Origin: Candidatus Methanomethylophilaceae archaeon
GTDB lineage: Archaea > Thermoplasmatota > Thermoplasmata > Methanomassiliicoccales > Methanomethylophilaceae
Direction of reading: 5' to 3'
Assembly: GCA_944321985.1 (NCBI GenBank)
Contig: CALUNK010000006.1
Coordinates: 1-39,093, forward strand
Length of the DNA: 39,093 bases
A program made the position numbers and the translations under genes. Positions 13,175 through 30,276 of the stretch are shown here, one piece after another. Under the pieces are notes generated by a model. That model searched no databases. It saw only the letters and a list, made by a program, of their open reading frames with translations, and was not told the origin of the DNA. Every line of letters starts with the position of its first letter. Positions within the stretch are counted from its first letter, which is position 1.

Positions 13175-14849
13175 GTTGGCCCCTCACCCTCAGTAGTTCC
13201 ATTAACTCTATGATTGCTGGCAACATACTTACATCCGCATTATCGCATATGTAGTTAGCCAAAGGTTCTGGATACTCCACCTTGGATGTCTTCAAAACAC
13301 CTATGTTATTCTAAACTGCATCATTGGTTTTTTGATTATCGAGTTTTTTCAAGTATGTATCCCCATAATATTCCTCGAGGAAACCGGTTACTGTATCATT
13401 CATGTTTGTGCAGATATGACCTTCTATGCTAAGCCCGTTAGGAATAACTACAATCCTCTTAGAATCACCTTGTCTTAGTTTCTCTAATCCACCCAGATCG
13501 GCTACAGCTTTGTCTATTTTATCCAAAGGTGTCTTCTCTCCGTCAGAGAATATAACCCAGTCTATCTCTAGGCTGTTGAACACATCTATGAACTGACGAT
13601 ATTCGGTTCCACCGACACCTAGAACTGTGATTCCTAGGGAATCTGCAGTCTTTCCAAAATAAGAATGGATCAAAGGTGGGAGGAACAGTTCCTCTGTTCT
13701 TCCCTCCACCAGAATTACGACCCTTGCGAAGAGTGCAGCTGGTTTGAACCGGCGTATTCTTTCTTCGACTTTCTTCAGTTTTTCTTTGTTTGTTATTTTG
13801 CTTCTTATGTATTCTGTGCCGTTTGTCTTATGTTTGCAGTTAATCAGATTGATGATTCCGCCTTCTGCTAGAACATATGGGGAATGGGTAGTAACAATGC
13901 TCTGAATATCCATTCCGGAAAGTTCACGACCCATGTCAGATTGGAGTTGGGGATGTAGGTGGGCCTCGGGCTCCTCGACCATGAGAAGCATGTATGCTAA
14001 GCCGTTTCCCAGACTGCGTCTTGAAAGAATTTCTGCAGTGGTTATTGCCGCTATGCTGCGTGTACCAAGGCCGACAGAAGAGATTGGAATCACATTCCCC
14101 CCTTCATCCACCTTTATGTCCAGTCCCCGGTATATGTCGTTCACTTCCGATGGCAAAGGATCCACATACAGATTTCCGCTTTCATTGAGTTTCTTCAGTG
14201 CTTCTGAAATAGAACTAAGAAGTTGGGAACCGTTGACTAAACGTGTGTTTATCGATCTGATAACATCCCGAATCTCTTGACTGATGTCTTCGGGAATATC
14301 GACTTTTGAGACTTCGCGGTTCCAAAGCGATCCTCTGTCATAGACGTCTTCGGAGATGTCTCTATGGGCTTCGATGTAGTAGCATCCGAAAAGTCTCATC
14401 AGATCTTCTGACAACTTGATATTTTTGTTGGCTTTGATCGTTAATCCGTTCCATTCTGTAATACTGTATCTGTTTCTGCGATAGGTTCCATTATCTTCGT
14501 CATAGGTCAACTCCGTTCTGAAACAGAAATGATTGTTCTCAGTCAGCATATTCCCGAGTTTACGCATCCATTGCTTCTTGAGTTCATCATCACCATCTAG
14601 TTCGAACCTCAAATCAACATATACCTCTTTTTCACGGGAATAGGGCTCATGATTGGAACTGTAGACATCACTTGCCATGAATCTCCTACTCCCCAGGGCT
14701 AGTTGGATTGCAAACAAAAGATTGCTCTTTCCTGCATTATTGAGGCCAAATACATAATTCGAATGGCCCAATTGCACAAACGCTTCTCTTACCGATTTGA
14801 TATTGACAACATGAACCTCTGTCAGTTTGATCCCACAACTATTTGTCAT
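13140..14849 (-). CDS. gajA: GajA-like OLD endonuclease with one in-frame TAG (Gabija defence)
   Basis: An ABC-type ATPase fused to a TOPRIM nuclease. Motifs are GLNNAGKS (Walker A, residues 35-42), SVGLGTRS (signature, about 258-265), LLMVEEPEAHLHPQ (Walker B, about 288-301), TTHSPYVL (His switch) and the TOPRIM glutamate in ILVEGRTEE (about 379-387). The start is the ATG at 14849, 26 nt from the TATA box at 14871. Codon 513 is TAG (13311-13313). Beyond it the same frame continues for 56 codons with good coding sense (KVEYPEPLANYICDNADVSM) to TGA at 13140-13142. The full product is about 569 residues, close to known GajA (about 578), and overlaps gajB by 35 nt. Ending at TAG would remove part of the C-terminal nuclease region. 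Readthrough, probably as pyrrolysine, is inferred. Confidence 0.82.
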
Positions 14850-14870
14850 ATCATTCAAAAAATGATTGTA

Positions 14871-14880
14871 CTTTATAAAG
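14871..14880 (-). promoter_or_regulatory. TATA box of the Gabija operon
   Basis: On the minus strand CTTTATAAAG is centred 26 nt before the ATG at 14849, so the transcript should be leaderless. An in-frame TTG at 14858 is therefore unlikely to be the start. Confidence 0.55.
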
Positions 14881-14894
14881 ATAGAAGCGTGAGG

Positions 14895-14996
14895 TCACGC
14901 CGAATCACAGGTCCCATCATCTATCGGCATCGGAGGAATCTGGACGTCCGTGTGGGTCCTTATCAACCCGGTGCCGTCATTGCGAATCTCATTCAT
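14895..14996 (-). CDS. Possible 33-residue ORF downstream of the zinc-ribbon gene
   Basis: ATG at 14996 to TGA at 14895-14897, 18 nt after the stop of the zinc-ribbon gene on the same strand. The peptide contains RTHTDVQIPPMPIDDG. Spacing suggests a shared transcript, but there is no recognisable motif and the ORF is short enough to be chance. Confidence 0.25.
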   Translation of the reverse strand: MNEIRNDGTGLIRTHTDVQIPPMPIDDGTCDSA

Positions 14997-15014
14997 CGGA
15001 ACCGGACGGAACCA

Positions 15015-15176
15015 TCAGTCTATCTCAACGGTCACGGTGAACCTTGTTCCGCATACGCAGCGGTACTGCTCGAACATGCCGATGTCCGTGTCACCGTTGG
15101 ACTTCATGTCGGTGACCGACTGCTCGCATCCGCACACGGGGCAGGCTATGCGCATGAAGGTGTTGTTGAATGTCAT
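15015..15176 (-). CDS. Small zinc-ribbon protein (Ogr/Delta-like)
   Basis: A 53-residue protein starting at ATG 15176 (MTFNNTFMRIACPVCGCE). It has paired CPVCG and YRCVCGTRFTVT motifs separated by about 25 residues. This spacing resembles single zinc-ribbon regulators such as phage Ogr/Delta. Binding of one zinc ion and nucleic-acid contact are inferred from the fold. The longer frame upstream has no homology-like sense. It lies between Gabija and a broken gene, so it may be a leftover phage or plasmid regulator. Confidence 0.5.
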   Translation of the reverse strand: MTFNNTFMRIACPVCGCEQSVTDMKSNGDTDIGMFEQYRCVCGTRFTVTVEID

Positions 15177-15194
15177 GATTTCTGAGATGTACCA

Positions 15195-15885
15195 ATGAGA
15201 CTTAACAGGATCATCAACGTTCTGTGGAGGAGCAACAGGCAGGGGTTCGTGTAGATCTTCGAGCAGAGGTACTAGGGGGACGTGTACCAGAAGGCACATA
15301 ACCAGGCCGAGGAGAAGAGTCAGGCCATCATCGCGGGCCTGGGGGCAAGGTTCGGATCTGTTCAAGCAGGTGGAGTATAGCAGGATGATACCGGTGACCA
15401 GGGCACCTGGAGGAGTGTATTGTTCCAGAGGTCAGAGAAGTCTGTGGAATCTGATGCAGGTTTAGTTCAAGTCATGGCGACGTAAGAGCCAGCAGTCGTC
15501 AAGCACTGAAGGAGGACTTCAACCCCGTCATCGGCAGGAGAACCATGGTCTCTGCCCCGGAAGGCTCGAGATTAAGGTGGCGGACCAATCCCAGTGGAGG
15601 ACCTCCTTACAGAGGTATATGGTCGAGAGTTTGGCGGAAGAGACCATCTACTCCGAGTCGTTCATCGATGGGAAGTACTTCGTCCACATCAATCCCAGCA
15701 AGAGGTTCATCATTGTGAGGAAGCACGACTACGGGTCGGCGATCTGCATCAACAAGAGGATCAGGTTGGACGGACTGGGGACCTACTCGGGGTTCATTGG
15801 GAAGTGCCAGCTGATGGCGGAGTACAGTGCCAGATATGATAAGATGCTGACCTATCTGCGAGGAGGTTACTTTACCTTCAGATAA
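15195..15885 (+). pseudogene. Broken gene with several TAG codons and frameshifts
   Basis: Starting at ATG 15195 the frame gives MRLNRIINVLWRSNRQGFV, then TAG (15252), IFEQRY, TAG (15273), GDVYQKAHNQAEEKSQAIIA. Coding sense later moves between frames: LFKQVEYSRMIPVTRAP near 15358-15410, ALKEDFNPVIGRRTMVSAPE near 15500-15560, and from 15577 an intact 102-codon tail containing YMVESLAEETIYSESFIDGK and FVHINPSKRFIIVRKHDYG, ending at TAA 15883-15885. Read together it looks like one protein of about 230 residues broken by small indels. The tail can also be read as a separate gene with GTG at 15577. I do not recognise the family. It converges with the helicase gene and overlaps it by 19 nt. Confidence 0.45.
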
Positions 15886-18149
15886 TAGACACATTCCTTG
15901 AGGTACTCGGATTCGCTCCCGTTAAGGGACACTAGGTGTACGGATTTCCTCGCTCTTGTCAGAGCGACATAGAACAATCTGCGCTCATCCGCCAATTTGT
16001 CCCCGTGTCCGTTCAGCAGGGACTTGATTAGTATGGATTCGCCACGCATGTCAGGGAATCCGCCTGGGCCCCTTTTATTGTTCAATATGAACACATGATC
16101 CGCTTGGATCCCTTTGGAACCATGTATCGTCATGAAGGTTATCTTCCTGTCTGAGTTGGTCCTGGTGACCGTAAAGGTCCTTCCGCCTACGTCGGGCTTC
16201 CATCTGAACCCTCCGTTCTCAAGGGACACGATGTCGTGGCGGAATCTGCTGAGGAATAGGATGCTCTCATTCACGGGAATGCTGTCCACCAGGCGGGCGA
16301 CCGACCTGGCACATGATGCCGGCGAGTTTTCCCGGATGAACACGACATTTGTATCGAAGGACGGGTCTCCTCTCAGGTTCTTGTGTATCTGCCCGGAGGT
16401 CGAGTTCATGAACGCGTTGCTGACGCGGAGGAGCTCTCCGGAGAAACGATACGTTCTCTCTATGCGGCAGGTCTCCGACGGCCCCCAGTACTTTTCGAAG
16501 TCCAGGATGTAGTTCACATCGCTGCCGTTGAAGCGGTATATGCTCTGCCAGTCGTCCCCTACACAGAACAGTTTGAAATCATGTGATTCACGGAGGGATC
16601 TCAGAAGATTGTACCTGGAGCGCGAGATGTCCTGGTACTCATCGACTATGACGTACCTGTATGCGGGAACGTACCCTCCGCTATTCACACGGTCGGATGC
16701 AAGGTTGAGCACGTCCTCGAAATCGATCTCGTCTCTATCCCTGAGTGTTCTCTGGTATGAATTGTAGATGGGTTCCAGCAGTCTCACGACACGTTTCAGG
16801 ACTCTCCTCTCACGGATTCCGGAACCTCCAGACAGGGATTCTTGCAGCGGTTGGCCGTTTTCTTTCACAAGAATCATGGCCGTGGAGAACTCCCTGACGA
16901 CCTTGTCGAGGGCAAATGAGTTCCCGTTGCTGAGCGACGAGAAGATCTCGCTGGGATTTCGCGACCCTACTTTCACTCCTGTGTTTCTAAGCCCTTTTTC
17001 CAGTTCATCCAGAAGGGAATCGTCGGAACGCTGGTAGGAGTATAGTGGGATGAGGGTCGTTCCGTTCTCCGAGTGGGTCCTGGTCTTCCATTCCATTCCT
17101 GCGCGGTACTCGGCGGAGGCATCATTGCCGTGATTGGATTTCATGAACGGTGCGACGTTACCCCGTCTGTCCACTCCGAAGTACTCGATGTACACATTCG
17201 TGTCTCTGATATGGAAATCTGGGTGGTACTGTCCGTATTCTGAGGTGCGCGTGTCTACGGGGTACGGCTCTTCGTAGGCATACGGGATGTCATGCATGTA
17301 GAGCCAGTTCGCTATGTCTGCCTCCCCCAGGCTCTTCACCGTCTTTCCGTCCAGGGTGACGAGGGGATTCTCCTTGATGAACTTCTGATAATCTGTTTCG
17401 TTATCGAAATCATCCTCGTCGAACGCGTACCTGCTGTCGAATGCCATGTATCTGTCCAGATCCCTCAGGTATCTGTCATCGGACATCAGTCCAAGGAGCT
17501 CGTTTCTCACGAAGGACTCCGTGTCGATGCTGGACACTCTGGGGACCTTGCCGTCCGATTCAGCGAGTATCCTCATACCGAGCCTGTGGAACGTGCAGAC
17601 GTCCAGTCTCATGCCCACCTCTTTTAACATCCTGCGGGACAGATCCGAAACTGTCGCATTGGTGAATGATAGGAACAGGATGTCCTCAGGTTCAGCCTTC
17701 TTTGAAAGGATGAGGTATTTGGCAAGTCCAATAATCGTAGTAGTCTTACCAGTTCCAGCACCCGCAAGGACCAGTCTGGTGTGAACATCCTTGGCAATAG
17801 CAGAAGTCTGCTGTGAATCTAAGGGGAAGCCTTCGACGTCACCAATCGTTTCGCTGACCTCAGGGACAAGAGACAATGCCATTTTCTCATTGTGTTCATG
17901 GGATCTTTCAGCAAGACTGTCGTAGTTCGTTCTGAAAGATTTGCAGCTGTCCCTGAGCTGTCTTGATCTGACCCCTATACGAAATAGAATCCCTTTGCTG
18001 ATGGATTCGGCCTGACTCCTGAGATAAGAGTACCGATTAAGTACAGCAACAATGCCTTCAGGTTCAGAGAACCTGTCTTCGGGTATGGATTCGGAAAGAA
18101 TCCTGGAGGCATCATTAAAATCCGTGTTCAGATTCTCTTTCCGATTCAT
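15867..18149 (-). CDS. UvrD/helicase-IV-like protein with inserted nuclease-like domain
   Basis: A 760-residue superfamily 1 helicase. The first 100 residues are helical with no motif. Then come RLVLAGAGTGKTTTII (Walker A, about 125-140), IVDEYQDISRSRYNLL (motif II), FCVGDDWQSIYRFNGSD (III), RTYRFS (IV), ITFMTIHGSKGIQADHVFIL (V) and ERRLFYVALTRAR (VI). Between motifs Ia and II, near residues 275-330, is an insert with IPYAYEEPYP...YHPDFHI...VYIEYFG. It has the D-(x)n-ExFG pattern of the Vsr-like PD-(D/E)XK-type insert seen in helicase IV relatives. It may unwind and nick DNA. Its position between Gabija and a restriction system suggests defence, but a repair role is possible. It ends at TAA. 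Confidence 0.8.
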   Translation of the reverse strand: MNRKENLNTDFNDASRILSESIPEDRFSEPEGIVAVLNRYSYLRSQAESISKGILFRIGVRSRQLRDSCKSFRTNYDSLAERSHEHNEKMALSLVPEVSETIGDVEGFPLDSQQTSAIAKDVHTRLVLAGAGTGKTTTIIGLAKYLILSKKAEPEDILFLSFTNATVSDLSRRMLKEVGMRLDVCTFHRLGMRILAESDGKVPRVSSIDTESFVRNELLGLMSDDRYLRDLDRYMAFDSRYAFDEDDFDNETDYQKFIKENPLVTLDGKTVKSLGEADIANWLYMHDIPYAYEEPYPVDTRTSEYGQYHPDFHIRDTNVYIEYFGVDRRGNVAPFMKSNHGNDASAEYRAGMEWKTRTHSENGTTLIPLYSYQRSDDSLLDELEKGLRNTGVKVGSRNPSEIFSSLSNGNSFALDKVVREFSTAMILVKENGQPLQESLSGGSGIRERRVLKRVVRLLEPIYNSYQRTLRDRDEIDFEDVLNLASDRVNSGGYVPAYRYVIVDEYQDISRSRYNLLRSLRESHDFKLFCVGDDWQSIYRFNGSDVNYILDFEKYWGPSETCRIERTYRFSGELLRVSNAFMNSTSGQIHKNLRGDPSFDTNVVFIRENSPASCARSVARLVDSIPVNESILFLSRFRHDIVSLENGGFRWKPDVGGRTFTVTRTNSDRKITFMTIHGSKGIQADHVFILNNKRGPGGFPDMRGESILIKSLLNGHGDKLADERRLFYVALTRARKSVHLVSLNGSESEYLKECVYYLKVK

Positions 18150-18292
18150 GCAGGAACATGGCAGATGTTCTGTTTGAACATTGTTGAATCTTTCGAATCA
18201 TCAAAGGAGGAATGTTTTCACATTCATGAACGTATCAGTTTTTCATTCATTATTAACATCGAAATGCAACCTATAGAAAGACATCATATTGA

Positions 18293-18522
18293 TTATTGAC
18301 ATACAATAATCAAAGCATCATCCAATTCTCTGTCATTTTTTGATTCCGGTATGAGGAGAATCGCGCCAACGAATGGTAGCAGATGATCATTGCGACTTCC
18401 CACGGTTCGTCTTTGATTGGTATAGGACAAATTACGTCGACCTTCCCTGGGAACAATTTGTATGATTCGAGGTTGTGGATGAGGGCATCTGACATGTGCA
18501 TCTTGTAGGCTTCGAACTCCAA
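18293..18522 (-). pseudogene. Small frameshifted gene
   Basis: From a TTG at 18522 (or ATG at 18501) the frame reads EFEAYKMHMSDALIHN... to WEVAMIICYH. Coding sense then switches near 18385 to PFVGAILLIPESKNDRELDD and ends at TAA 18293-18295. Restoring one C in the ACCATTC run joins the parts into a single protein of about 76 residues. It could be a real small gene with a sequence error, or a relic. No family is recognised. Confidence 0.35.
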
Positions 18523-18993
18523 CGTTTTGATTCAAATTTATCATTCTCTGGATTGATATCTAATTCATGTTTAGGTTTAGTTTCGCATCGGACATCGATA
18601 TTAATAATGAATCTTAGATTAGGAGTCGGACTCGTCAGAGATGATGAGTGTGAAGTTAAGTCTGAGAGGAACAGAATATAATCCACACATCTTGAATCGG
18701 GACTATCTTTTGTTAACAGACATTCAGAAATGTCTAGTTTTATTCGTCATAAGATCAATGTTTTCTGAACGGTTCTGAGATGACTTCCATTGCCATGGTG
18801 TTTCGTATCCAACCCAATAGAACATTTTGAGTTCGATTCATATTTAAAAAAACAAAACACCCTAAAGAAAAACAGAAGTAAATGAAGAATGCCGAATAAG
18901 AAAGTTTGAAAAATGGAACGTTCAGACTGTGTAACAGCCAGGAATAATATTCAACAAAGGGCTTGAGCTGATGTGGATTCGGAGAAGTGTTTC
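18523..18993. other. AT-rich gene-free stretch
   Basis: About 470 nt of AT-rich DNA between the small broken gene and vsr. Open frames are short and without motifs. An RTGATGA-like box near 18638 is followed by CTGA, but no second C'/D pair is seen. The other gap, 18150-18292, also shows nothing. Confidence 0.4.
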
Positions 18994-19028
18994 TTTATAA
19001 TGAATGAGAAATGTGAACGGAGGAAGGG
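18994..19028 (+). promoter_or_regulatory. TATA box and Shine-Dalgarno of vsr
   Basis: CTTTATAA near 18993-19000 would place transcription start near 19022-19026. GGAGGAAGGG at 19019-19028 is a strong ribosome binding site, 6-10 nt before ATG 19034. It decides that start over the ATG at 19004. Confidence 0.5.
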
Positions 19029-19033
19029 TAGCC

Positions 19034-19450
19034 ATGACCATCCACAATCCCGAGCCTACCAGTACGACCACAACGAAGGTTATGAAGGCAAATAAGGGCA
19101 AAGACACTGGACCGGAGAAAACGGTACGCAGGCTTCTTCGCGAGATTGGCTATCCCGGATATCGTCTCAACTGGAAGAAGGTACCAGGCAGGCCTGACAT
19201 CGCATACCCTGGCCGCAAGATAGCGATATTCGTCAATGGTTGTTTCTGGCATCGGTGTCCTCATTGCAACCTCCCGCTACCGAAGTCACATACGGAGTTC
19301 TGGAGGGAGAAGTTCGAGCGGAACGTGGCCAGGGATTGGGAGAAGACGAGGGCTTTGGAGGCCCTCGGTTGGACAGTCATCACAATCTGGGAGTGCGAAC
19401 TGAAGGACCCCGAGGCCGTTAAGGGGCGCCTGTCAGTCCTTCTCTCTTGA
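19034..19450 (+). CDS. vsr: Very-short-patch-repair (Vsr-type) endonuclease
   Basis: A 138-residue protein matching Vsr. TGPEKTVRRLLREIGYPGYRL leads into VPGRPDI (catalytic Asp), IAIFVNGCFWHRCPHC (zinc- and DNA-contacting region), PKSHTEFWREKFERN, and a final strand WTVITIWECEL. Vsr nicks next to T:G mismatches that arise when 5-methylcytosine deaminates, so it pairs naturally with the C5 methyltransferase encoded 1.5 kb away. About 25 residues rich in Thr precede the core. The start at 19034 is set by a strong GGAGG. Its 3' end overlaps the convergent restriction gene by 18 nt. Length is normal. Confidence 0.9.
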   Translation: MTIHNPEPTSTTTTKVMKANKGKDTGPEKTVRRLLREIGYPGYRLNWKKVPGRPDIAYPGRKIAIFVNGCFWHRCPHCNLPLPKSHTEFWREKFERNVARDWEKTRALEALGWTVITIWECELKDPEAVKGRLSVLLS

Positions 19451-20881
19451 CCTCAACCTGTCAAGGCTCTCCTTTATGACCCCTCTGATGTAGTTGTCGT
19501 TGAACCAGAAGCTCCTCTTGGTGTAGTGGCCACCTCTGAACGGATATGTGTCCTCCTTGTTCCGCCCATGTGGTCTCACATGTGCTATGAGGTGGTCGCT
19601 GGCACCGATGAAGTGATCGAAGTCCATCCTGGAGACCTTTGCCTGGGTGTCCTCCCAGACCTTCTGAATGACCTTGAAGTCCTCATCCGGGACGTACCAG
19701 AAGAACGCTCCCCTGAACGTCAGCTCCTTGCGGCCCTCGTTCCTCGGATTCGGTGTGTTGAACTGGAACACGGGGATGAGGAACCCGTGGTCGATCTGGG
19801 AGTAGAAGTCGCTGGTATCCCATGTCTGTTCCACAAGCTCCTCGTACTTGAACGCGGGGAAGGACATACTCTCCTTGGGCTGTCCGTTCAGCTTGATCCT
19901 GGCGGTCTTGATGATGATGCCCGCCTCGTCGAACTCTTTGACGCGCTTCTTGCCGAAAACATCCAGCATCGCCAGCGTCAGGGTGTAGTAGTATTGCTTC
20001 GAAGATTCGTTCAGCTCTATGTCGAGCATCCTCTCTATCTCCTGGCAGGTCTTCCCGACGAACCTGTCGAAGCGGGCCATGACGTATTCCTCGAAAGTCT
20101 GGTCTTCAGACCAGGCGCCCTTGAATATTGTGTCGGAATCATCCTTCTCTTTGACGATGGGAGCCTCTATGAACATCTCGTTCACATCCGGATGGGAGCG
20201 GAACAAGGCTGTCATGAAAGGGGCCTTGAATGAAAGGGACCTCTGCTTGGCGGGCCTGTCCGAGAACGGCTGGGGGCGGTCGTCCTTCCCATGACCGGCG
20301 CCCTTCGTGTTTGCAGCGAGATACTTGGTCTGTCTTTCAGAGAGCAGGTCGGCTTCGCCACGGAGGATGTACCCCTCGATTACCTTCCAATCGTCGAGGA
20401 TAAGACGGAGTTCCTCCTCCGTCGGCTTCCAATCGACGACCTTCAGAATGCGGTACGAGTGGACGTCTGTGTTCTCCTTCCAGTGGTAGAAGACGATTAG
20501 TATATGGGAACCCTTGTCGAGGAATGTTCTGAATCCTTTTTCGGGCACCTCACTATAGTTGATGATGCCCAGGACCATCCTCTCCTTGGATGTCATCCTG
20601 TCCCCTTCGCCCTTCATCGGGGCGACCTTCAGCTCCATGCCAACCTTCCTGAAATCCGGCTCCGGGAGGCTGTTGTTAGGAATGTGGAAGTAGTCCTCCT
20701 CGAGAATCTGTCCGAATTTGCCCTTGGAGTGGGTGTCTCCTATGACAATCTCCCCACCACTGATGAGTTCGTCCAAGGTCTTTCCTGTGAGTTTTCCAGC
20801 ATAACGGAGTATGGATCCAAGGTCCGAGTCATCATATGGTAGCTTCTCGACGGGTTCCTTCTTCGACTCCTCACTGGACAT
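19433..20881 (-). CDS. Sau3AI/MutH-family type II restriction endonuclease
   Basis: A 482-residue protein, close in length to Sau3AI (about 490). After an acidic N-terminus it shows GKFGQILEEDYFHIPNN, then PDFRKVGMELKVAPMK and TSKERMVLGIINY. This is the MutH/Sau3AI catalytic signature, with D and ExK as metal ligands. The C-terminal half (EQTWDTSDFYSQIDHGFLIP, FRGAFFWYVPDEDF) corresponds to the second Sau3AI-like domain, which acts in allosteric loop formation. Sau3AI cuts at GATC, so GATC is the expected site, by inference only. The ATG at 20881 is chosen because upstream codons overlap the divergent promoter. The partner methyltransferase is divergent and vsr convergent. Confidence 0.88.
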   Translation of the reverse strand: MSSEESKKEPVEKLPYDDSDLGSILRYAGKLTGKTLDELISGGEIVIGDTHSKGKFGQILEEDYFHIPNNSLPEPDFRKVGMELKVAPMKGEGDRMTSKERMVLGIINYSEVPEKGFRTFLDKGSHILIVFYHWKENTDVHSYRILKVVDWKPTEEELRLILDDWKVIEGYILRGEADLLSERQTKYLAANTKGAGHGKDDRPQPFSDRPAKQRSLSFKAPFMTALFRSHPDVNEMFIEAPIVKEKDDSDTIFKGAWSEDQTFEEYVMARFDRFVGKTCQEIERMLDIELNESSKQYYYTLTLAMLDVFGKKRVKEFDEAGIIIKTARIKLNGQPKESMSFPAFKYEELVEQTWDTSDFYSQIDHGFLIPVFQFNTPNPRNEGRKELTFRGAFFWYVPDEDFKVIQKVWEDTQAKVSRMDFDHFIGASDHLIAHVRPHGRNKEDTYPFRGGHYTKRSFWFNDNYIRGVIKESLDRLRSREKD

Positions 20882-20911
20882 GGCAATCGGAGGTGGATGG
20901 AGTCGCTCTAA

Positions 20912-20938
20912 GATAATTCGATCGGCAGTTTTAATTAT
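20912..20938. promoter_or_regulatory. Divergent promoters of restriction and methyltransferase genes
   Basis: TTTTAATTAT at 20929-20938 on the plus strand is about 27 nt before the methyltransferase ATG (20961), which should be leaderless. On the minus strand AATTATCT at 20919-20912 is about 34 nt before the endonuclease ATG (20881). The two boxes nearly touch, with a GATC at 20920-20923 between them, so transcription of the two genes may interfere. Confidence 0.5.
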
Positions 20939-20960
20939 CATGAAGATCTCATTCGTCTTG

Positions 20961-22199
20961 ATGGGCGACAAGATTAGGGTAGTGGAGCTGTTCGCGGGGG
21001 TCGGAGGATTCCGCATAGGGCTGGAGAATGCATCGAACAGGTTCGTCACGGTATGGGCGGATCAGTGGGAGCCCGGTAGGAAGGACCAGTTCGCATTCAG
21101 ATGCTACGATACCCACTTTAAGGACTCTGGATCCGTCAACATGAACGAGGATATTGCCGAGGTCTGGAGAGAGGCACCGGAGCATGATTTGTTGGTCGGT
21201 GGGTTCCCTTGTCAGGACTACTCGGTCGCAGCTACGCAGGCCAAGGGCATAGAGGGTAAGAAGGGTGTTCTCTGGTGGAACATCTTCGACATCATTAAGC
21301 TACGGTCCCCGAGGTTCGTTCTTCTGGAGAATGTAGACAGGCTCGTCAGGTCTCCCGCCAGTCAAAGGGGGCGTGATTTCGGCGTCATCCTCCGCTGTCT
21401 GGCAGACGAGGGATATTGCGTGGAATGGCGTGTCATAAACGCCGCCGACTACGGTCTGCAACAGAGGCGTCGTCGCACGTTCATATTCGCATGTAGATCC
21501 ACAGAATCTTTTGCGGAGATATACAAGGACCATGATTGGGAGGGAATTGTCGAGAGAATCGGATTCTTCGCCGAACCGTTCCCCGTCAACCAATTGAAGG
21601 ATGCGAGGAAGGTTGGCGAGTTCTCCATAGATGACTCTCAGTATCCATCCCTCGTGGACGTATCGGACGGGTTCGAGGAAGACTTCTACCATGCAGGGGT
21701 CATGGCGGACCATATGGTCTACACCACGGACGTAGAACCGATTGCCCCAGACATCGTGGTCAACCTCAGGGACATCCTCCAGAAAGATGTGGACGCGAGG
21801 TATTACAGGGTTGACGTATCGAAGTGGGAGTACATGAAGGGGGCGAAGAGGGAGCTCCGTACTAGAAAGGATGGATCCACCTATCATTACACTGAGGGGG
21901 CCATCCCGTTCCCAGACATCTTGGACCGTCCTGGGCGCACGATGCTGACCAGTGAGGGTTCGGTCAATCGTTCTAGTCATCTTATCGAGGATCCCCAGAA
22001 TGGGAAGCTCAGGATTCTAACACCGGTGGAATGCGAACGTCTCAACGGATTTCCAGATAACTGGACCGATACCGGTATGTCTGAACGCCAGAGGTATTTC
22101 ACGATGGGAAACGCACTAGTTGTACCTTTGATAGAGAGGATGGGTAAGAGGATTTGTGAGATATGTGATGACATTACTGTACAAACCCATTTAGATTGA
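20961..22199 (+). CDS. DNA (cytosine-5) methyltransferase
   Basis: A 412-residue C5 methyltransferase that would protect host DNA from the adjacent endonuclease. Motif I is VVELFAGVGGFRIGL (residues 7-21), motif IV GGFPCQDYS with catalytic Cys near 84, motif VI ENVDRL (about 123), motif VIII QQRRRR (about 167-172), motif IX LTPVECERLNGFPDNW, and motif X MGNALVVPLIERMG. The region between VIII and IX (about 180-340) is the target recognition domain. Paired with a Sau3AI-type enzyme, it is expected to make m5C within GATC; this is inference. The open frame extends 50 codons upstream, but the TATA box and conserved start support 20961. It overlaps the convergent AIPR gene by 26 nt. Confidence 0.92.
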   Translation: MGDKIRVVELFAGVGGFRIGLENASNRFVTVWADQWEPGRKDQFAFRCYDTHFKDSGSVNMNEDIAEVWREAPEHDLLVGGFPCQDYSVAATQAKGIEGKKGVLWWNIFDIIKLRSPRFVLLENVDRLVRSPASQRGRDFGVILRCLADEGYCVEWRVINAADYGLQQRRRRTFIFACRSTESFAEIYKDHDWEGIVERIGFFAEPFPVNQLKDARKVGEFSIDDSQYPSLVDVSDGFEEDFYHAGVMADHMVYTTDVEPIAPDIVVNLRDILQKDVDARYYRVDVSKWEYMKGAKRELRTRKDGSTYHYTEGAIPFPDILDRPGRTMLTSEGSVNRSSHLIEDPQNGKLRILTPVECERLNGFPDNWTDTGMSERQRYFTMGNALVVPLIERMGKRICEICDDITVQTHLD

Positions 22200-23973
22200 G
22201 AGGTTTGGTACTACTCACGACGTTCTTACAAGTATCCATTGTTTTGAAATCAATCGGAGCTTTAATCATTTCATTGTAACCCTTGCCAGGATTCGCGTTC
22301 ATCCACAGACTGGCATACATTGAGAGGACCATCAAGTAGTGTTCAACAACTTGGTCGACATCACTCACATCCTTCAACAGATTTGAAATATTGTGAGCAT
22401 TTCCGCTACATTCGTACTTTCCGAAGCAATTAATAAGGAAGAATGGGTTGAATATATTGCCTTTCTTACGTTCCTTTTCCAGTCTCATGAACAATAAGAG
22501 GAGTAGCACCTGGTCATTGGTTGTAATCTCGGAGTCAGTAATGAATGCCAGGGCATTTTTGTTTTGTTGACTGTTACCCTGAAGAAGTTTTGATTTGTTC
22601 TGAACAGCGTCATGAGCATCAGTGAACGATATGAAAATCTGTAATAGTTTTTCAAGGTTGATCATTAAATCGGCCGCTCTTTTGATGTCTCCGATACCAA
22701 ATTTAATCAGCAAAGGTTGACATTCTTTCAATAGTGGAGATGCGCTGTTTTTGTATTCTTCAGTGAACTTGTGATTATCACTTTGTTTGAGACAGACCAG
22801 GAAGCCTTTCCTTTTGAATTCAGTTTGAATACGGACGAATTCTGACGAGAGTGATTCGAATGTTTTAGAATCAATGGAATTCTGTGAATTGTTGAATCTA
22901 ACTATGTTTTGACTCAACTGTTTGAATTCAGCAGTTTGTTTGGGTATCTTCAGAATCTTAATCATGACGTATGTATCAGCGAACTTGCTCTGGATGGCAT
23001 CTTCTGGCAGTTCAGATAGTGTTTCATAGATGGTACTGACAGTCTGACATCCGTTCACAATCTGGGGATTTGTTATTCTAATTGTGGTTGGTTGTCCGGT
23101 TTCGATACTTCCCATATCTTTGACAATCATTGTTATGCCATTATTGTAGTAGAAGAAATTGTGACGATCATCATCATCTAGGAGTGTTTTACGGATTCCT
23201 TTGTTGACAGCCACACGAGATCCAAGGTATTCACGGATATTTGAATCAAAGAGCGGATAGCCTGAGGATTTCGATTCTTTGCAAAGTTGATACAGGTTCA
23301 GTATTGGTGTAAAGACATATCTGGCATCAATTTTCTGCTTCAATCCATATTCCTTGGAATCGATGTTGAGAATTGTACCTTTGTTCTTTGATTCTATATT
23401 AAAGGTCAACCCTTTCTTTTCTTCCAAGGGGAGGTCATAGTACAGTTCCTTTATTTCATCAAGCCAGAAGATGCGCGCGATGTAGTTCTGGTCAGAATGA
23501 GATTCGTTAAATTCTGCTATTGCATCCTCCAATGATTTCTTTTTTGACGCATTGTTTGTAATGTAGAGAGAAAGGTATACAGTAAAATCCTCATCATCTT
23601 TATATTTGTTAAAGATGGTTTGAAGCTCAAGTGAGTGTGAATATGTTCCGTTTTCCAAAGCACCTATTGCACTCACCAAAAAGTTATTTCTGACATAGTT
23701 GAGACTTAGGTCTGAGTTCTCCGAGTAATATTTGTTTTGAATCAGGTAGAGGTCTTTCGTATCCTCATGCCATACATAGCAATCGACGCCCAAATCATTA
23801 TAGTCAATGATAAGGCCTTCAATCAAATCCTCATCAACAGAATATAATTTATCAAGAACCCAGAAATTGAATGCCCATTCAGGTTTATTCATGTTAGGGA
23901 CATATGAGAATTTGGATTGATATCCGAGGATGTCCTCTTGAATCTGACTAATAAAGCTGGGGGCGGAATTCAT
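22174..23973 (-). CDS. AIPR (abortive infection phage resistance) family protein
   Basis: A 599-residue protein. The centre holds the AIPR signature, FFYYNNGITMIVKDM followed by ITNPQIVNGCQTVSTIYE. The N-terminal region has GLIIDYNDLGVDCYVW...DLYLIQNKYY, a D...QxK pattern that resembles a Mrr-like PD-(D/E)XK core. It may therefore cut nucleic acid. AIPR proteins were first linked to lactococcal phage abortive infection; their exact mechanism is not established here. The gene is distinctly AT-rich against its surroundings, which suggests separate acquisition. The ATG at 23973 is 26 nt from a TATA box. It is convergent with the methyltransferase and stands alone. Confidence 0.82.
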   Translation of the reverse strand: MNSAPSFISQIQEDILGYQSKFSYVPNMNKPEWAFNFWVLDKLYSVDEDLIEGLIIDYNDLGVDCYVWHEDTKDLYLIQNKYYSENSDLSLNYVRNNFLVSAIGALENGTYSHSLELQTIFNKYKDDEDFTVYLSLYITNNASKKKSLEDAIAEFNESHSDQNYIARIFWLDEIKELYYDLPLEEKKGLTFNIESKNKGTILNIDSKEYGLKQKIDARYVFTPILNLYQLCKESKSSGYPLFDSNIREYLGSRVAVNKGIRKTLLDDDDRHNFFYYNNGITMIVKDMGSIETGQPTTIRITNPQIVNGCQTVSTIYETLSELPEDAIQSKFADTYVMIKILKIPKQTAEFKQLSQNIVRFNNSQNSIDSKTFESLSSEFVRIQTEFKRKGFLVCLKQSDNHKFTEEYKNSASPLLKECQPLLIKFGIGDIKRAADLMINLEKLLQIFISFTDAHDAVQNKSKLLQGNSQQNKNALAFITDSEITTNDQVLLLLLFMRLEKERKKGNIFNPFFLINCFGKYECSGNAHNISNLLKDVSDVDQVVEHYLMVLSMYASLWMNANPGKGYNEMIKAPIDFKTMDTCKNVVSSTKPLNLNGFVQ

Positions 23974-23994
23974 CAGATATGAAAAGTCATCAAA

Positions 23995-24003
23995 TCATAT
24001 TAG
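23995..24003 (-). promoter_or_regulatory. TATA box of the AIPR gene
   Basis: On the minus strand CTAATATGA is centred 26 nt before ATG 23973, giving a leaderless transcript. Confidence 0.45.
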
Positions 24004-24059
24004 AATATTGACCTTTAATTCGCGTTTTCACTATCTAGTCGGAACGTCGTTATGCATGT

Positions 24060-24071
24060 GGGGGGGGGGGG
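24060..24071 (+). repeat. Poly-G tract (G12)
   Basis: Twelve consecutive G upstream of the AIPR promoter on the opposite strand, about 87 nt before its ATG. It is the second such tract in the island. Confidence 0.85.
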
Positions 24072-24238
24072 AGGTGAGTTCGTATTTCGAACATACACAA
24101 TAATCATGAAGCATATAGTGGTCACAGGTTTACTAGTCTGTTTAAGTAGCGTCCACGAGTCCAATTTGGAGGACACTGTCAATTCACAGGGACAATTCGT
24201 GGTTTAGCTGAGATGGATGACCTATAGAATCATTTCTG

Positions 24239-24385
24239 TTATGCAATGATACTTTCGAGAAAGTTCTCACTTTTTTCGTCAAGGATACATGTGTACAGTG
24301 TTTTCCTAGTTCTGCACATAATTATTGATTGGGTTGTACCTTGACCGAAAGAGACCAATAGGGATGATCGTTCAAAAATATCCAT
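24239..24385 (-). CDS. Possible 48-residue ORF
   Basis: ATG at 24385 to TAA at 24239-24241. The peptide begins MDIFERSSLLVSFGQG and ends DEKSENFLESIIA. Amino-acid composition looks protein-like, but there is no recognisable motif, ribosome site or firm promoter. It could be a fragment of an older gene. Confidence 0.25.
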   Translation of the reverse strand: MDIFERSSLLVSFGQGTTQSIIMCRTRKTLYTCILDEKSENFLESIIA

Positions 24386-24557
24386 AGGTCTGTATGGTGT
24401 ATGAGATGGAGGATTGACCGAGAGGGGCCTATTACTTGCCGAGCTTTATTGAAATTGGAAGAGGGGTGCCATCCCATTAATATCCGTCAAATCGAAGTAA
24501 ATAATATTAGAGGTAGTGTATCTTTGTTCTTTCACGGGAGATGTTATTGGCGGGCAT

Positions 24558-26696
24558 TTATGTCCCGTCTCGGATTTCGAAGTCCCAGTCCAAGAACTTA
24601 GCCACGAACGCATCGGCCAGCAGAGCGTCCGGCACGTACCTGTCGTACTTCCCGTGTCTGAGGTTCTCGCTCTCGCCGATCAGCGACCACCTGTCGTCAT
24701 CTTCACGTGTACCGTCCAGAGCCTCGCATATCTCCTTCACCGTGAGCCTGGTGTCTATGCCGATCACCAGCGGGCTGTACGCGTAAGCGACCCTCACGCC
24801 GCGGACGCGTTCCAGCATCCTCCTGAGGGTGTCGAATTTCACCGACCCCAGCCAGGGGTAGATCTCGAAGCCGTCCTCGGTCGGCACGAAGACGTCTCCC
24901 GCACCCGAATTGCGAAATGTTCTTCTCGAGTACCCAAGGGTCTCCCTGGCGGACGAGTCCAGGTACGGGAAGTCCTCGTCCGACAGGAGCACGTCCCTGG
25001 TCTTCGCCATCACCCTGTCGTGGACCGCCGGCGGCTCGGACCTCCATCTCGCGTCGGCCTCCCCGTCGGTCTCCACCGCCTCCGCCCATCCGTCCCCGCG
25101 CCTGGTGACCAGCCACACCCTCCCCGCGAGGGCCACGGTGGCGCCCACGTCCGGCGAGCCCTGCACGGTGCCCACCGTTGAACCGCCAGACCTGACCTCC
25201 GTCTCCTCTCTGACCTCGAACACGGCCTGGAAGTCCCTGCCGAATGCTACCTGCTCTCCCCTGGGCCCGATTATCAGCGTCAGGTCCTCGGTCTGCATCA
25301 GGATGCGCTTGTTGATCATGTGCTTCAGGAGGAGCCTGTAGTCCTCCCGGGTGATCCCGGAGAACGGCGACAGCGACAGCACCTCGTCGCACAGGTCCCC
25401 GAACCTCATGTCCCTCTGCGCCCCCTTGAGAACGGCCAGCGTCTGGTGGAACAGCAGGCCGTAGGGAAGCGGGTCCGGAGACATGGGCTCGGTCCATCCC
25501 TCCCCCAGATACAGCTCCGTCTCCGCGATCCCCCTGGCCAGCTCCAGGGACACGCCCTCGATCCCGGGGCGCCACTCGCCAAGGTCGTCGTTGCAGAACA
25601 TGACCATCTCCTGGCGGCCGTCCCTGCGGCCGGACCTGCCCATCCTCTGTACTAGGCTGGAGCAGGAGTACGGCGCGCCGATCTGGACCACGCGGTCCAG
25701 CCCGCCTATGTCCATGCCCAGCTCCAGGGTGACCGTGGCAACCACGGTCGCGTTCCGGTCGCCCTTCAGATCGTCCTCTGCGGTCTTCCTGACTCCTCCC
25801 GACAGGGATCCGTGGTGGACCCTCACCGGGTTGCGGGAGCCCCTGGCGGCGGACACCTTGGCGAGGGACCTCGCCGTTCTCTCGGCGCCAGCCCTGCTGT
25901 TGGTGAAGACTATGCAGCTGTAGGGGTCGGTCAGTCTGAACAGTTCCGAGTAGTACCTGGAGACGGCCCTCTCCCTGCTCCCCTCGGGGTCCTTCGGCGG
26001 GAACGTGAAGTGCTTTATGCCCATCCTGCAGGACCTGCGGTCGTCCGAGGACACGACGTCGACCTCCCCGCCGGTGCCCGACGCCAGCCATTCGGCCGCA
26101 GCGTCCGGGTCGGAGACGGTCGCCGACAGCCCGACCCTCCTGGGCGAGCACCCGCACATGCGGTGCATCCTCTCCAGCAGGCACAGCAGTTGCAGCCCCC
26201 TGTCAGAGGACATGAACGAGTGCACCTCGTCCACGACCACGAACCTGAGGCCGGAGAACATCGCCCCCACCGACTCGGGATGGTTGTCCAGGATGCCCTC
26301 CAGCGACTCCGGGGTGATCTGCAGGATTCCCTCGGGGTGCGCCATCAGGCGCCTCTTCCTGCCGTCGTCCACGTCCCCGTGCCATCCGTTCACCGGGATG
26401 CGGGACTCCCTCAGCATCCTATCCAGACGGGAGAACTGGTCGTCTATCAGCGCCTTGGTAGGACCGACGTACAACGCGCCGATCCCGGGGGCCGGGTCTT
26501 CGTGCAGCGAGGCGATGATGGGGATCATGGCGGCCTCCGTCTTGCCAGAGGAGGTGCCAGACGCTATCAGCAGATGGCGGTCGGTGTCGAAGAGGACGTC
26601 GAACGCCCTCTCCTGGACCTCGCGGAACCCGGTCCATCCGCTCCTGTGCAGGTGGTCGAGGACGAACCCCGGCATCCTGCCGGTGTGGTCGGTCAT
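24558..26696 (-). CDS. Lhr-like DEAD/DEAH helicase (BrxHI-like)
   Basis: A 712-residue superfamily 2 helicase. It opens with a Q-motif-like FREVQERAF, then LLIASGTSSGKTEAAMIP (Walker A, about residues 42-59), GALYVGPTKALIDDQ (Ia), VVVDEVHSF (II, DEVH), VGLSATVSD (III), VHHGSLSG (IV region), VATVTLELGMDIGGLDRVVQ (V) and QRMGRSGRR (VI). A long C-terminal region as in Lhr-type helicases follows. Relatives are found in BREX type 2 (BrxHI) next to BrxD ATPases, as here. The start at ATG 26696 overlaps the ATPase stop (ATGA). The frame is open upstream, but that part is a shadow of the ATPase gene. It is the last gene of a three-gene operon and very GC-rich. Confidence 0.85.
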   Translation of the reverse strand: MTDHTGRMPGFVLDHLHRSGWTGFREVQERAFDVLFDTDRHLLIASGTSSGKTEAAMIPIIASLHEDPAPGIGALYVGPTKALIDDQFSRLDRMLRESRIPVNGWHGDVDDGRKRRLMAHPEGILQITPESLEGILDNHPESVGAMFSGLRFVVVDEVHSFMSSDRGLQLLCLLERMHRMCGCSPRRVGLSATVSDPDAAAEWLASGTGGEVDVVSSDDRRSCRMGIKHFTFPPKDPEGSRERAVSRYYSELFRLTDPYSCIVFTNSRAGAERTARSLAKVSAARGSRNPVRVHHGSLSGGVRKTAEDDLKGDRNATVVATVTLELGMDIGGLDRVVQIGAPYSCSSLVQRMGRSGRRDGRQEMVMFCNDDLGEWRPGIEGVSLELARGIAETELYLGEGWTEPMSPDPLPYGLLFHQTLAVLKGAQRDMRFGDLCDEVLSLSPFSGITREDYRLLLKHMINKRILMQTEDLTLIIGPRGEQVAFGRDFQAVFEVREETEVRSGGSTVGTVQGSPDVGATVALAGRVWLVTRRGDGWAEAVETDGEADARWRSEPPAVHDRVMAKTRDVLLSDEDFPYLDSSARETLGYSRRTFRNSGAGDVFVPTEDGFEIYPWLGSVKFDTLRRMLERVRGVRVAYAYSPLVIGIDTRLTVKEICEALDGTREDDDRWSLIGESENLRHGKYDRYVPDALLADAFVAKFLDWDFEIRDGT

Positions 26697-27982
26697 ACCT
26701 CCAGGTCCTCGATGAGGTCGTCGTCCGGGTCCCTGTCCGGGGACACGACCCTGCCCTCCACCAGCTCGGAGAACGACACGTCCGGATTCTGGTGCATGGT
26801 GTCCAGGAGGCTGATGAAGTCCCTGGTGATCTCCCTGGGGGTGACCATCCCCTGCCCGATGGCGCAGGTGACCGTCTTCAGGTAGGTCTCCAGCATGGCG
26901 TCGTCGATCTCCGACCTGTATCCGTAGCGCTGCTCGTGCATCCCGCGGAGGGTCCTGAGGAGCACGAAGACCTCCTCGTTCGTCAGCGGCCTCAGGTTGA
27001 TCACCGGTCCGAGGTAGTTGTCGTATCCGTTCTCGAACCTTCCCGCCACGAGTCTGGACCTCAGCGCCTCGTAGCTGTACAGGCCCCTGTCGGGGTCCTC
27101 TATGAACTCCGGGGTCCCGCACACGTAGATGGACAGGTGCGAGGACTTCCCCTGCATGATGTCGTTGAACATCGACAGCAGCCTCTCGTAGTTGTTGCTG
27201 CGGGAGACCCTGTTCTGGATCTTGTACAGGACCACGCCCTCGTCGATGAACACGACCAGGCCTTTGTACCCTATGCGGTGGGCGAACTCCGCCCAGATCT
27301 TGATGAAGTCGTACCAGTTGGCGTCCGTGACCATGTTGCTGATGCCCAGGTCCCTGCGGACGTCCGACTTCAGATCGTACTCCCCCTTGAACCAGCGGAG
27401 CGAGGGCATGTCCTCCCTCCCGGAGGAGATGTCATCCCAGTATGCGGAAACCACCGCGGCGAAGTCCTGGTAGAACGTGAGGCCACTCATGCCGGAGGTC
27501 TCCCTGGCGAGCCTCTCGGAGACGTCCCCCGGCGGGATGTCGTTCACGGGGACGCCCCTCTCGGACGACATCCTCTGGCGGACGTCGTCGATCCACCTCT
27601 GGAGGACGAGCTCCAGCGCGCCCCCCTCGGGGCGGGACTTCACCGCCATGTTGCGGACCAGCTCCCTGTAGGTGTTCAGCCCCTCCCTCTTGCTGCCGGT
27701 GAGCCTGTGGTTGATCGACAGGTCCGCGTCCATGACCACGAACCCCTGGTCCATGGCGTAGTTGCGGACCATCTGTATCATGAAGCTCTTGCCGTTCCCG
27801 AACTTCCCCGAGATGAACCTGAAGGCGCCGCCCCCCTCGGCGGTGTCCTCCAGGTCGTTGACGAAGGTCTCGGTCTCCCTCCTCCTCCCCACGGCTATGT
27901 ACTCCAGCCCCCTGCGGGGCACCACGCCCGAGGAAAGGGCGTTCATCATGGTCACCAGCGTCCTTCTGGGAATGTCTGTCAT
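26693..27982 (-). CDS. BrxD-like ATP-binding protein (DUF2791 type)
   Basis: A 429-residue P-loop ATPase. It has FRFISGKFGNGKSFMIQMV (Walker A, about residues 55-73), KGLVVFIDEGVVLYK (Walker B, about 240-254) and a SIYVCGTPEF sensor-like strand. Together with the DxDLSINHRL region this fits the BREX-associated ATPase family BrxD/DUF2791. It is coupled on both sides: its ATG shares one base with the upstream TerB_N stop (TGATG), and its stop overlaps the helicase start (ATGA). Upstream of the ATG is GGAGGGA. The ATPase probably loads or controls the helicase. No BREX methyltransferase or PglZ is present. Confidence 0.83.
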   Translation of the reverse strand: MTDIPRRTLVTMMNALSSGVVPRRGLEYIAVGRRRETETFVNDLEDTAEGGGAFRFISGKFGNGKSFMIQMVRNYAMDQGFVVMDADLSINHRLTGSKREGLNTYRELVRNMAVKSRPEGGALELVLQRWIDDVRQRMSSERGVPVNDIPPGDVSERLARETSGMSGLTFYQDFAAVVSAYWDDISSGREDMPSLRWFKGEYDLKSDVRRDLGISNMVTDANWYDFIKIWAEFAHRIGYKGLVVFIDEGVVLYKIQNRVSRSNNYERLLSMFNDIMQGKSSHLSIYVCGTPEFIEDPDRGLYSYEALRSRLVAGRFENGYDNYLGPVINLRPLTNEEVFVLLRTLRGMHEQRYGYRSEIDDAMLETYLKTVTCAIGQGMVTPREITRDFISLLDTMHQNPDVSFSELVEGRVVSPDRDPDDDLIEDLEV

Positions 27983-30276
27983 CAGTCTCCCTCCTCTTCC
28001 GGCGTCCCCCGTCCGAGCATGACGGGATGGGCCGCCAGCATGCGGCGTACGTCATCGGCGTACTCATCGAAAACGTTCCCGTCCTCCACTATCTGGTCGC
28101 CGACGGTGTCCATGGCGACCGCGTTTATCCCGTCCTCGAAGCGGACGGCCGTGCTACCGGCGTTCCTGGCGAACGCCTCCCCGCCTCCTTCCAGGGAAGC
28201 GGCGAGGTATCCCCTCTGCCCGTCGTCGAGGCCGCTCGCCAGGTCGTCCCAGGGGTTGGCCCCCGTCGTCCCCTCCGACGCCGTCTGCGTCCGGGGCTCG
28301 CACTCGGGCTCCGGGGACTCCGTGTCCTCCGTGCCCATCATGTCCCTCACGGCGGCGAGGTCGGACTCGGCGTCTGTGACCAGCGCCCTGTCCAGCACTA
28401 TGGACGCGGCCTCCCTCCTGATCCTCTCGACCCTCCTCGCACGCTCCTGCCTCTCCGCCCATGCGTCGAGCTCCGACTCCATGGCCAGCAGGAGGCCGTC
28501 GTCGATCATGCCCGCCGGGCGTCTGGGGGCCCTGGTGCCCTGCGGTATGTTGACGGCACGGACGGCCGCCTTCAGGGCGGCGGTGAGGATCCTCCCCCCG
28601 CCGTTGGTGGGTCTGATGTCGCAGATGTTCATGCTGCAGCTGCCCCAGTCGGAGGAGAGCCCCGGGAACAGCTTCCTGCACACGGCCCTTCTCCTGCCCG
28701 TCATGCATTCCGCCAGGCTCCTGCCCGTCTTGTCGAAGATGTCGGAGGAAAGCGCTCCGAGCGCGATGTTGAACGCCGCGTCGTAGTCGGAGGGGTCCTT
28801 CATGTACGCCCTGACCCCCGGGTCCGCGAACGGCAGGGCCATCTCCACGGGGATGCGGCCTGCGGGGATGGTGTCCAGCTTCACCCACAGGAGGAGCTGC
28901 TGGTCCCTCTCGGAGCCGTCCCATGGCGGGTCCTGGCCGGTGGCTATGGCGTAGTCCTGGCAGGTCCTCAGGATGAGGCCCCTGATGGAGTCTGACGACC
29001 CCCCGTACGCCCTCAGCATGCCGTTGAGGACAGCGAGCCCGCGTTCCGGGTAGTCCTCCTCGTCTATGACCTCGCACAGCATCAGCCAGAGGTATCCGCG
29101 GTCGGTGTCCCTGTAGACGCCGTTCAGCACGTCCCCTCTCCACGAGAGGTAGTAGTCGAGCTGCTCCCGCGTCATCTCGTCATAGTTGGCGCACCAGTGC
29201 TCGGACGGGACGTAGGGGACGTCCCTGCGGCCCGTCTGTCCCCTGTGGATCCTTATCGCGGCCTCCAGGGAGTCCTTGCGGGGAATGGACATGCTCGCCC
29301 TCAGGTCCTCGAACACGGTGGGGTTCAACGGGTACTCCTCGTCCTCCTGGACCGCGGGAGCCCATTCTGCAGGGTCCCTGCGCTCAAGGCCCTCGTCGCT
29401 CGCGGAGGATTCGTCCTCCATCGCCACCCTCACCCTCTCCGCCTGGGCGTCCGTGAGCAGCAGGGCCTCCCTCCAGGGGATGTCGTGGTGGTCCCAGTGC
29501 ACGGCGGAGTACACAGTGGCCGCCAGTCCGCGGAGGATGTCGTTCCAGCGTCCGGGGCCGTCCCGCCTCAGCACCATGACGGTCGCGTACTCCGGGTCCC
29601 CGTAGTAGGCGAAGCCGTCGAACAGCAGGACCTTCTGGTCGGTGAAGCACTCCTTCCCGAAGAGGAGGGGGTCGGCCGTCCTCTCCATAGCAACTATGTA
29701 TCCGAGGCATTTGGAGAACGTTTCCGCGAACGCCTCCCTGTCCTCGACGTTCCCCAGGCAGTCCATCCCGCAGATCCGGGAGATCACGGCGAAGGGTATG
29801 CCGGGCACGGGATCGCCGAGTATGGCCTCGGCGAGGGACGCGTCCCTGAGGTAGCCCCCGGTCCAGAGGATCTGCTCCGGCCATCTCCTCCCCATGAGGA
29901 GGCACATGTCCTTGGCGGCGCTGGTCGTCAGCACTGACAGCGTGTACGAGTCCGAGAAGCGTTCGTTCATCCACAGAAGCTCGGACAGGGCGTCATCCCA
30001 TGCCGTGAGGGGGTCGTTGATGAGCTCGCAGATCCTCAGCCACACGAACGGCTAATGGGGGGCGGCCTCCCCGTGCTCCGCGACCTCCGCCCTCCATGTC
30101 AGGTAGCTCTGGAGGAGTTCCAGTCCCATCGTTGCGTGGAAGAGGGGACGGGCAGGTGGCACGGCGTGCGATGGGGCGTCGGGAGGCACCCCGTGGTAGC
30201 GAATGACGTCCCCCAGGAAGGAATCGGGAGGTTCGAACGCGCAGGAGCCCGACCTTCTCTTTATACGCGCCTCCAT
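27982..30276 (-). CDS. TerB_N/TerB_C-like protein with one in-frame TAG
   Basis: A protein of about 764 residues if TAG at codon 75 (30052-30054) is read. Before it stands LQSYLTWRAEVAEHGEAAPH, after it PFVWLRICELIND. Together these form the TerB_N signature (Y-x-WR-x3-G ... Y-x-E-LIN). A second copy, EQLDYYLSWRGDVLNGVYRD then GYLWLMLCEVID, lies near residues 370-405. The C-terminal part, with LDRALVTDAESDLAAVR, resembles TerB_C. No central TerB domain is obvious. Without readthrough only a 74-residue stub forms; restart at GTG 30045 would lose half the first domain. ATG 30276 follows GGGAGACGGGAG and a TATA box at 30316-30324. It is the first gene of the operon with the ATPase and helicase, and probably a sensor or scaffold. 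Confidence 0.75.

Follow-up and report, generated by a model that had tools for sequence, protein, structure and literature searches.

The sngA gene and its in-frame TAG

The 39,093-nt stretch of DNA analysed here (the window) carries a gene, sngA, whose reading frame contains a TAG, which raises the question of whether the gene is broken, split in two or translated through this codon and, if it is translated, which amino acid is inserted. The gene is encoded on the minus strand, which an earlier sequence-only reading had not stated, and runs from an ATG at 30276 to a TGA at 27982, with 74 codons upstream and 689 codons downstream of its sole in-frame TAG (Table 1). Translation of this strand gave SYLTWRAEVAEHGEAAPH-TAG-PFVWLRICELIND around codon 75, thus confirming that the two halves stand in one frame, and the codon count agrees with the earlier statement that termination would leave a 74-residue stub. 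A frame free of TAA and TGA is not evidence by itself, because antisense frames here reach up to 1178 codons with 11 TAGs. The coding score based on codon usage was 246 for the sngA frame versus 14 for the antisense frame over the same DNA. In addition, the PADLOC SngA score rose from 90.3 to 101.8 bits once the part before the TAG was added.

As argued below, sngA is very probably the gene of a Shango operon in a Methanomethylophilaceae archaeon that reads UAG as pyrrolysine, the residue itself being a prediction. We infer all three of the following: pyrrolysine at codon 75, a full-length SngA and the antiviral role of the operon.

Table 1. Positions of the features discussed, in coordinates of the window
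Feature	Position	Strand	Evidence or remark
sngA, Shango TerB_N/TerB_C protein, 764 codons with TAG as a residue, TGA end	27982..30276	-	PADLOC SngA E 1.7e-29; Pfam TerB_N 352-402, TerB_C 617-735
In-frame TAG, codon 75, predicted pyrrolysine	30052..30054	-	TAG also in G076 and G098; Tyr (TAC) in G100
First TerB_N-like repeat (residues 47-149), holds the TAG	29830..30138	-	BLASTP to repeat 2 E 3e-7; hhalign 97.9%, E 4e-13
Second TerB_N repeat (residues 364-467), Arg393 in the TAG column	28876..29187	-	Pfam PF13208 352-402
TerB_C domain (residues 617-735)	28072..28428	-	Pfam PF15615 E 2e-5, 25.2 bits vs cut-off 26.3; best SngA stretch 600-747
sngB, BrxD-like ATPase	26693..27982	-	PADLOC SngB E 1.2e-150; Pfam BrxC_BrxD E 1e-135
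sngC, DEAD/DEAH (BrxHI-like) helicase	24558..26696	-	PADLOC SngC E 6e-185; ORF call
AIPR/AbiU-like gene	22174-23973		Defence island
C5-cytosine methylase	20811-22199		Defence island
MutH-type REase, beside the C5-cytosine methylase	19433-21049		Defence island
Second UvrD-like helicase	15867-18149		Defence island
gajA, in-frame TAG at codon 513 (13313-13311)	13143-14849	-	PADLOC 1e-102, residues 6-548, across the TAG
gajB	11393-13174	-	Gabija

The Shango operon

PADLOC recognised sngABC as a complete Shango defence operon, whose antiviral role is presumed. Shango inhibits phages in Pseudomonas aeruginosa, where it was tested with the PA14 operon (PMC10250203). The operon studied here has all three genes of that system, each with a strong profile match (SngB 1e-150, SngC 6e-185, SngA 2e-29), and the PADLOC SngC model outscored the BrxHI models on SngC. 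Unlike known Shango, it is archaeal, and its SngA is fast-evolving, contains an extra TerB_N-like repeat with the TAG, and shows most of its resemblance to the PADLOC SngA model over the second half. The sngA stop and the sngB start share 1 nt (TGATG), and the ATG of sngC, the position of which was set from the alignment with G076, overlaps the stop of sngB by 4 nt. With sngB and sngC both intact, the earlier description of an operon that is otherwise intact and tightly coupled proved correct.

BREX type 2, which shares the BrxD and BrxHI folds, was considered and rejected: the BREX_BrxD NCBIfam model gave 162 bits versus a cut-off of 350, and the scan of neighbouring genes revealed no PglX, PglY or PglZ. 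The family commonly carries SngC-like genes (E < 1e-170), and several tandem TerB_N protein matches lie upstream of sngC in many related species (for example, G073:C1:1244232-1249883); the copy number of SngA at the Shango locus seems to vary across related species. A search for a plasmid match for SngA found none.

The TAG lies in a variable column of a repeated motif

The TAG had been placed in the sequence-only reading inside a TerB_N motif that is repeated about 300 residues further on. The repeat was found as described: residues 47-88 and 365-406 of SngA aligned by BLASTP without a gap over 42 residues, 318 residues apart and across the TAG, and a profile–profile comparison of the two repeats by hhalign also gave a strong match. 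The assignment to the family was not reproduced directly, as the Pfam model PF13208 covers the second repeat only and gave no match on the first repeat alone; the TerB_N identity of the first repeat is derived instead from the comparison with the second repeat and from that of the profiles. On SngA as a whole, the TerB_N match was above its Pfam cut-off and the TerB_C match slightly below.

An alignment with TerB_N proteins had been proposed as a check on the TAG, so 24 copies of the motif from the genus and family were surveyed. The motif was 27 residues long in every copy, and the TAG sits in an aligned, gapless column in which the residues vary: Arg occurs seven times, TAG, Trp and Thr three times each, Glu and Leu twice each, and Tyr, Ser, Asn and Ala once each. 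The flanking W, R, Y, L and E positions show little or no variation. Because the TAG column is aligned yet variable, the comparison argues for pyrrolysine at residue 75 being a tolerated sense residue that would not be catalytic. Codon 75 may fall where the second helix of the first TerB_N-like repeat is predicted to begin; this placement is tentative because the AlphaFold model of SngA, built from four sequences, was poor (mean pLDDT 42.7).

Conservation on both sides of the TAG

We compared SngA from the source genome (G000) with the proteins of three other species of the genus, G076, G098 and G100, these four being the only close SngA orthologues in the searched sets; a scan of genome contigs added none beyond G098 and G100. 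The gene stands beside the same flanking genes in all three species, with sngABC syntenic in G076 and G098, and sngA-sngB in G100, whose contig breaks off within sngB. Codon 75 is aligned without a gap; it is TAG in G076 (83% identity) and in G098 (46%) and TAC, coding for Tyr, in G100 (66%). TAG was absent from 16 more distant SngA-like frames.

A recent nonsense pseudogene or a sequencing error might be suspected in an assembly that is MAG-like (86% completeness, 141 contigs) and in a gene interrupted at a single codon. However, the TAG is not a sequencing error, because it occupies the same codon in the genomes of two other species, one of them at 46% protein identity, and a pseudogene is contradicted by a frame that is still open, by dN/dS ratios (ω) far below 1 on either side of the TAG and by the intact sngB and sngC. 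We regard the probability of this explanation as practically negligible. Between G000 and G076, ω was 0.12 (0.05-0.26) for codons 1-74 and 0.05 (0-0.13) for codons 76-102; by this measure, the codons on either side of the TAG are under purifying selection in the TAG-bearing species.

These ratios also bear on the proposal that translation stops at the TAG and that sngA is split into a 74-residue peptide and a second protein restarted downstream. In the source genome a GTG occurs three codons past the TAG, and archaea can use GTG starts, but this codon is not conserved (G076 has GTA, G100 ATA and G098 GCC). Beyond it, the TAG-bearing species first share an in-frame start 28 codons past the TAG, yet the codons before that start, 76-102, are those with the lower ω. 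Readthrough fits far better than restart, because under restart this highly conserved stretch would go untranslated in both G076 and G098. In addition, the gene of G100 is uninterrupted, with Tyr at the site, and TAG is almost never a stop in the source genome, as described below. A split gene is therefore most unlikely.

We also looked at the RNA 3' of the sngA TAG. No structured RNA stood out there (fold z-scores 0.96, -1.38, -0.94 and -0.21), and the downstream fold of the TAG-free orthologue was no different from those of the TAG-bearing ones. A PYLIS-type signal at this TAG is thus unsupported.

Pyrrolysine machinery and stop-codon use

The source genome is that of a Methanomethylophilaceae archaeon with a pyrrolysine-decoding gene set. 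PylS (267 bits), PylB (410 bits), PylC, PylD, RamA and MtbB with an internal TAG were found, and MtmB with its classical TAG was recognised by its motif; PylS was above the family cut-off in 27 of the 31 genomes of the genus. The tRNA-Pyl was not detected by ARAGORN or Rfam; it was located by reading the region upstream of pylS and confirmed by folding and conservation. This tRNA-Pyl(CUA) adjoins pylS and has a cloverleaf fold; its sequence is 100% identical in G076 and G098. In the source genome pylB and the pylS-pylC-pylD genes are on separate contigs (G000:C14 and G000:C11); pylB adjoins pylS in G076, and two copies of pylB are present in G098.

Stop usage was counted in a sample of about 299 kb of the source genome. 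Its 235 called genes ended in TGA (215), TAA (19) and TAG (1), counts that are approximate because the gene caller missed MtmB, and TAG triplets outnumbered TAA in the DNA (3528 vs 2564). A dihydrouridine-synthase-like gene (L045) is followed by a TAG that looks like a genuine stop; hence TAG stops, though rare, may not be entirely absent. The release factor aRF1 is present in the source genome, and some termination at TAG may therefore occur.

Kivenson and co-workers are said to have described, in Science in 2025, an archaeal 'Pyl code' in which TAG generally stands for pyrrolysine. The source genome resembles it in having almost no TAG stops, in-frame TAGs in unrelated genes and a Methanomethylophilaceae affiliation, and nothing contradictory was found. 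Candidatus Methanomethylophilus alvus belongs to the same family as the source archaeon. It was reported to have 1.6% TAG stops and, in addition to the methylamine methyltransferases, 16 predicted Pyl proteins, one of them the CRISPR protein Cas1 (Borrel et al. 2014, PMC4153887). That report predates the description of Shango, and SngA and GajA are not named in its account of these proteins.

Decoding of the TAG as a standard residue (e.g. Gln, Tyr or Lys) by a near-cognate or suppressor tRNA would be in keeping with the Tyr of the G100 orthologue, one base away, and suppressor tRNAs are a common feature of some recoded phages. The only tRNA gene in the window is, however, a tRNA-Ile, and the genome contains a complete pyl set with a conserved tRNA-Pyl(CUA), the TAGs of MtmB and MtbB being classical Pyl sites, which makes a standard residue extremely unlikely.

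The sequence-only reading had left the residue unnamed. We take pyrrolysine as the clear candidate, for which the following course can be proposed. The tRNA-Pyl(CUA), charged by PylS, would insert pyrrolysine at codon 75 of the sngABC mRNA, and translation would continue to the TGA and then proceed, by way of the 1- and 4-nt overlaps, to sngB and sngC. The TAG has probably been kept as an ordinary sense codon in these cells at a position tolerant of many side chains, with no special role for the pyrrolysine. That the TAG would have to be read for a full SngA is supported, because both of its sides are conserved and the restart codon is not, the Pyl machinery is present and TAG stops are nearly absent.

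A second TAG in the Gabija operon of the same island

According to the sequence-only reading, this was a second defence-type operon in need of TAG decoding; the other one meant is presumably the Gabija operon, GajA/GajB. The claim is upheld by the position of the SngA TAG inside the Shango operon and by that of the GajA TAG inside its family match. A Paenibacillus homologue aligns past the GajA TAG as well, and reading this codon adds 56 further residues and makes gajA overlap the start of gajB. Gabija and Shango delimit a defence island at 11393-30276 of the window.

A variant of the pyrrolysine reading differs in the reason for keeping the codon: pyrrolysine at residue 75 would be selected for its own function, for example by tying immunity to the pyrrolysine or methylamine status of the cell. 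The TAG is present in three of the four species, including the most diverged one (46% identity), and gajA in the same island has a TAG too. On the other hand, Tyr stands at the site in G100, Arg in the paired repeat and nine standard residues in the column, and the 16 more distant frames lack the codon; we find such selection very unlikely. The broader proposal that pyrrolysine has been maintained for a function in immunity, with the Shango and Gabija systems of one island working only while pyrrolysyl-tRNA is made, is quite improbable. If true, it would tie defence to methylamine metabolism, and these Shango and Gabija genes would be non-functional in hosts without pyrrolysine.

TAG decoding itself is known biology, of which sngA is a well-supported new case: a defence gene of a Pyl-decoding archaeon in which an in-frame TAG is conserved. 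What is new is the predicted pyrrolysine in Shango and Gabija, which join the proteins of gut-type methanogens that need UAG to be decoded. Because sngA and gajA would be taken as broken or truncated in standard annotation, the defence systems of Methanomethylophilaceae are probably under-counted. Additionally, codon 75, in a variable motif column, offers a clean site for comparing pyrrolysine with Tyr and Arg.

We do not claim an enrichment of TAG in defence genes generally, as the SngC genes are without TAG and genes of other kinds contain it. An in-frame TAG lies midway along the Pfam CLC match of a voltage-gated chloride channel gene in the source genome (L048:2076-3317, minus strand). In G076, one was seen inside the Pfam match of a prismane/hybrid-cluster protein (L076:11881-13434, minus strand) and another in a gene for a TruA-like pseudouridine synthase (L077:2953-3621, plus strand).
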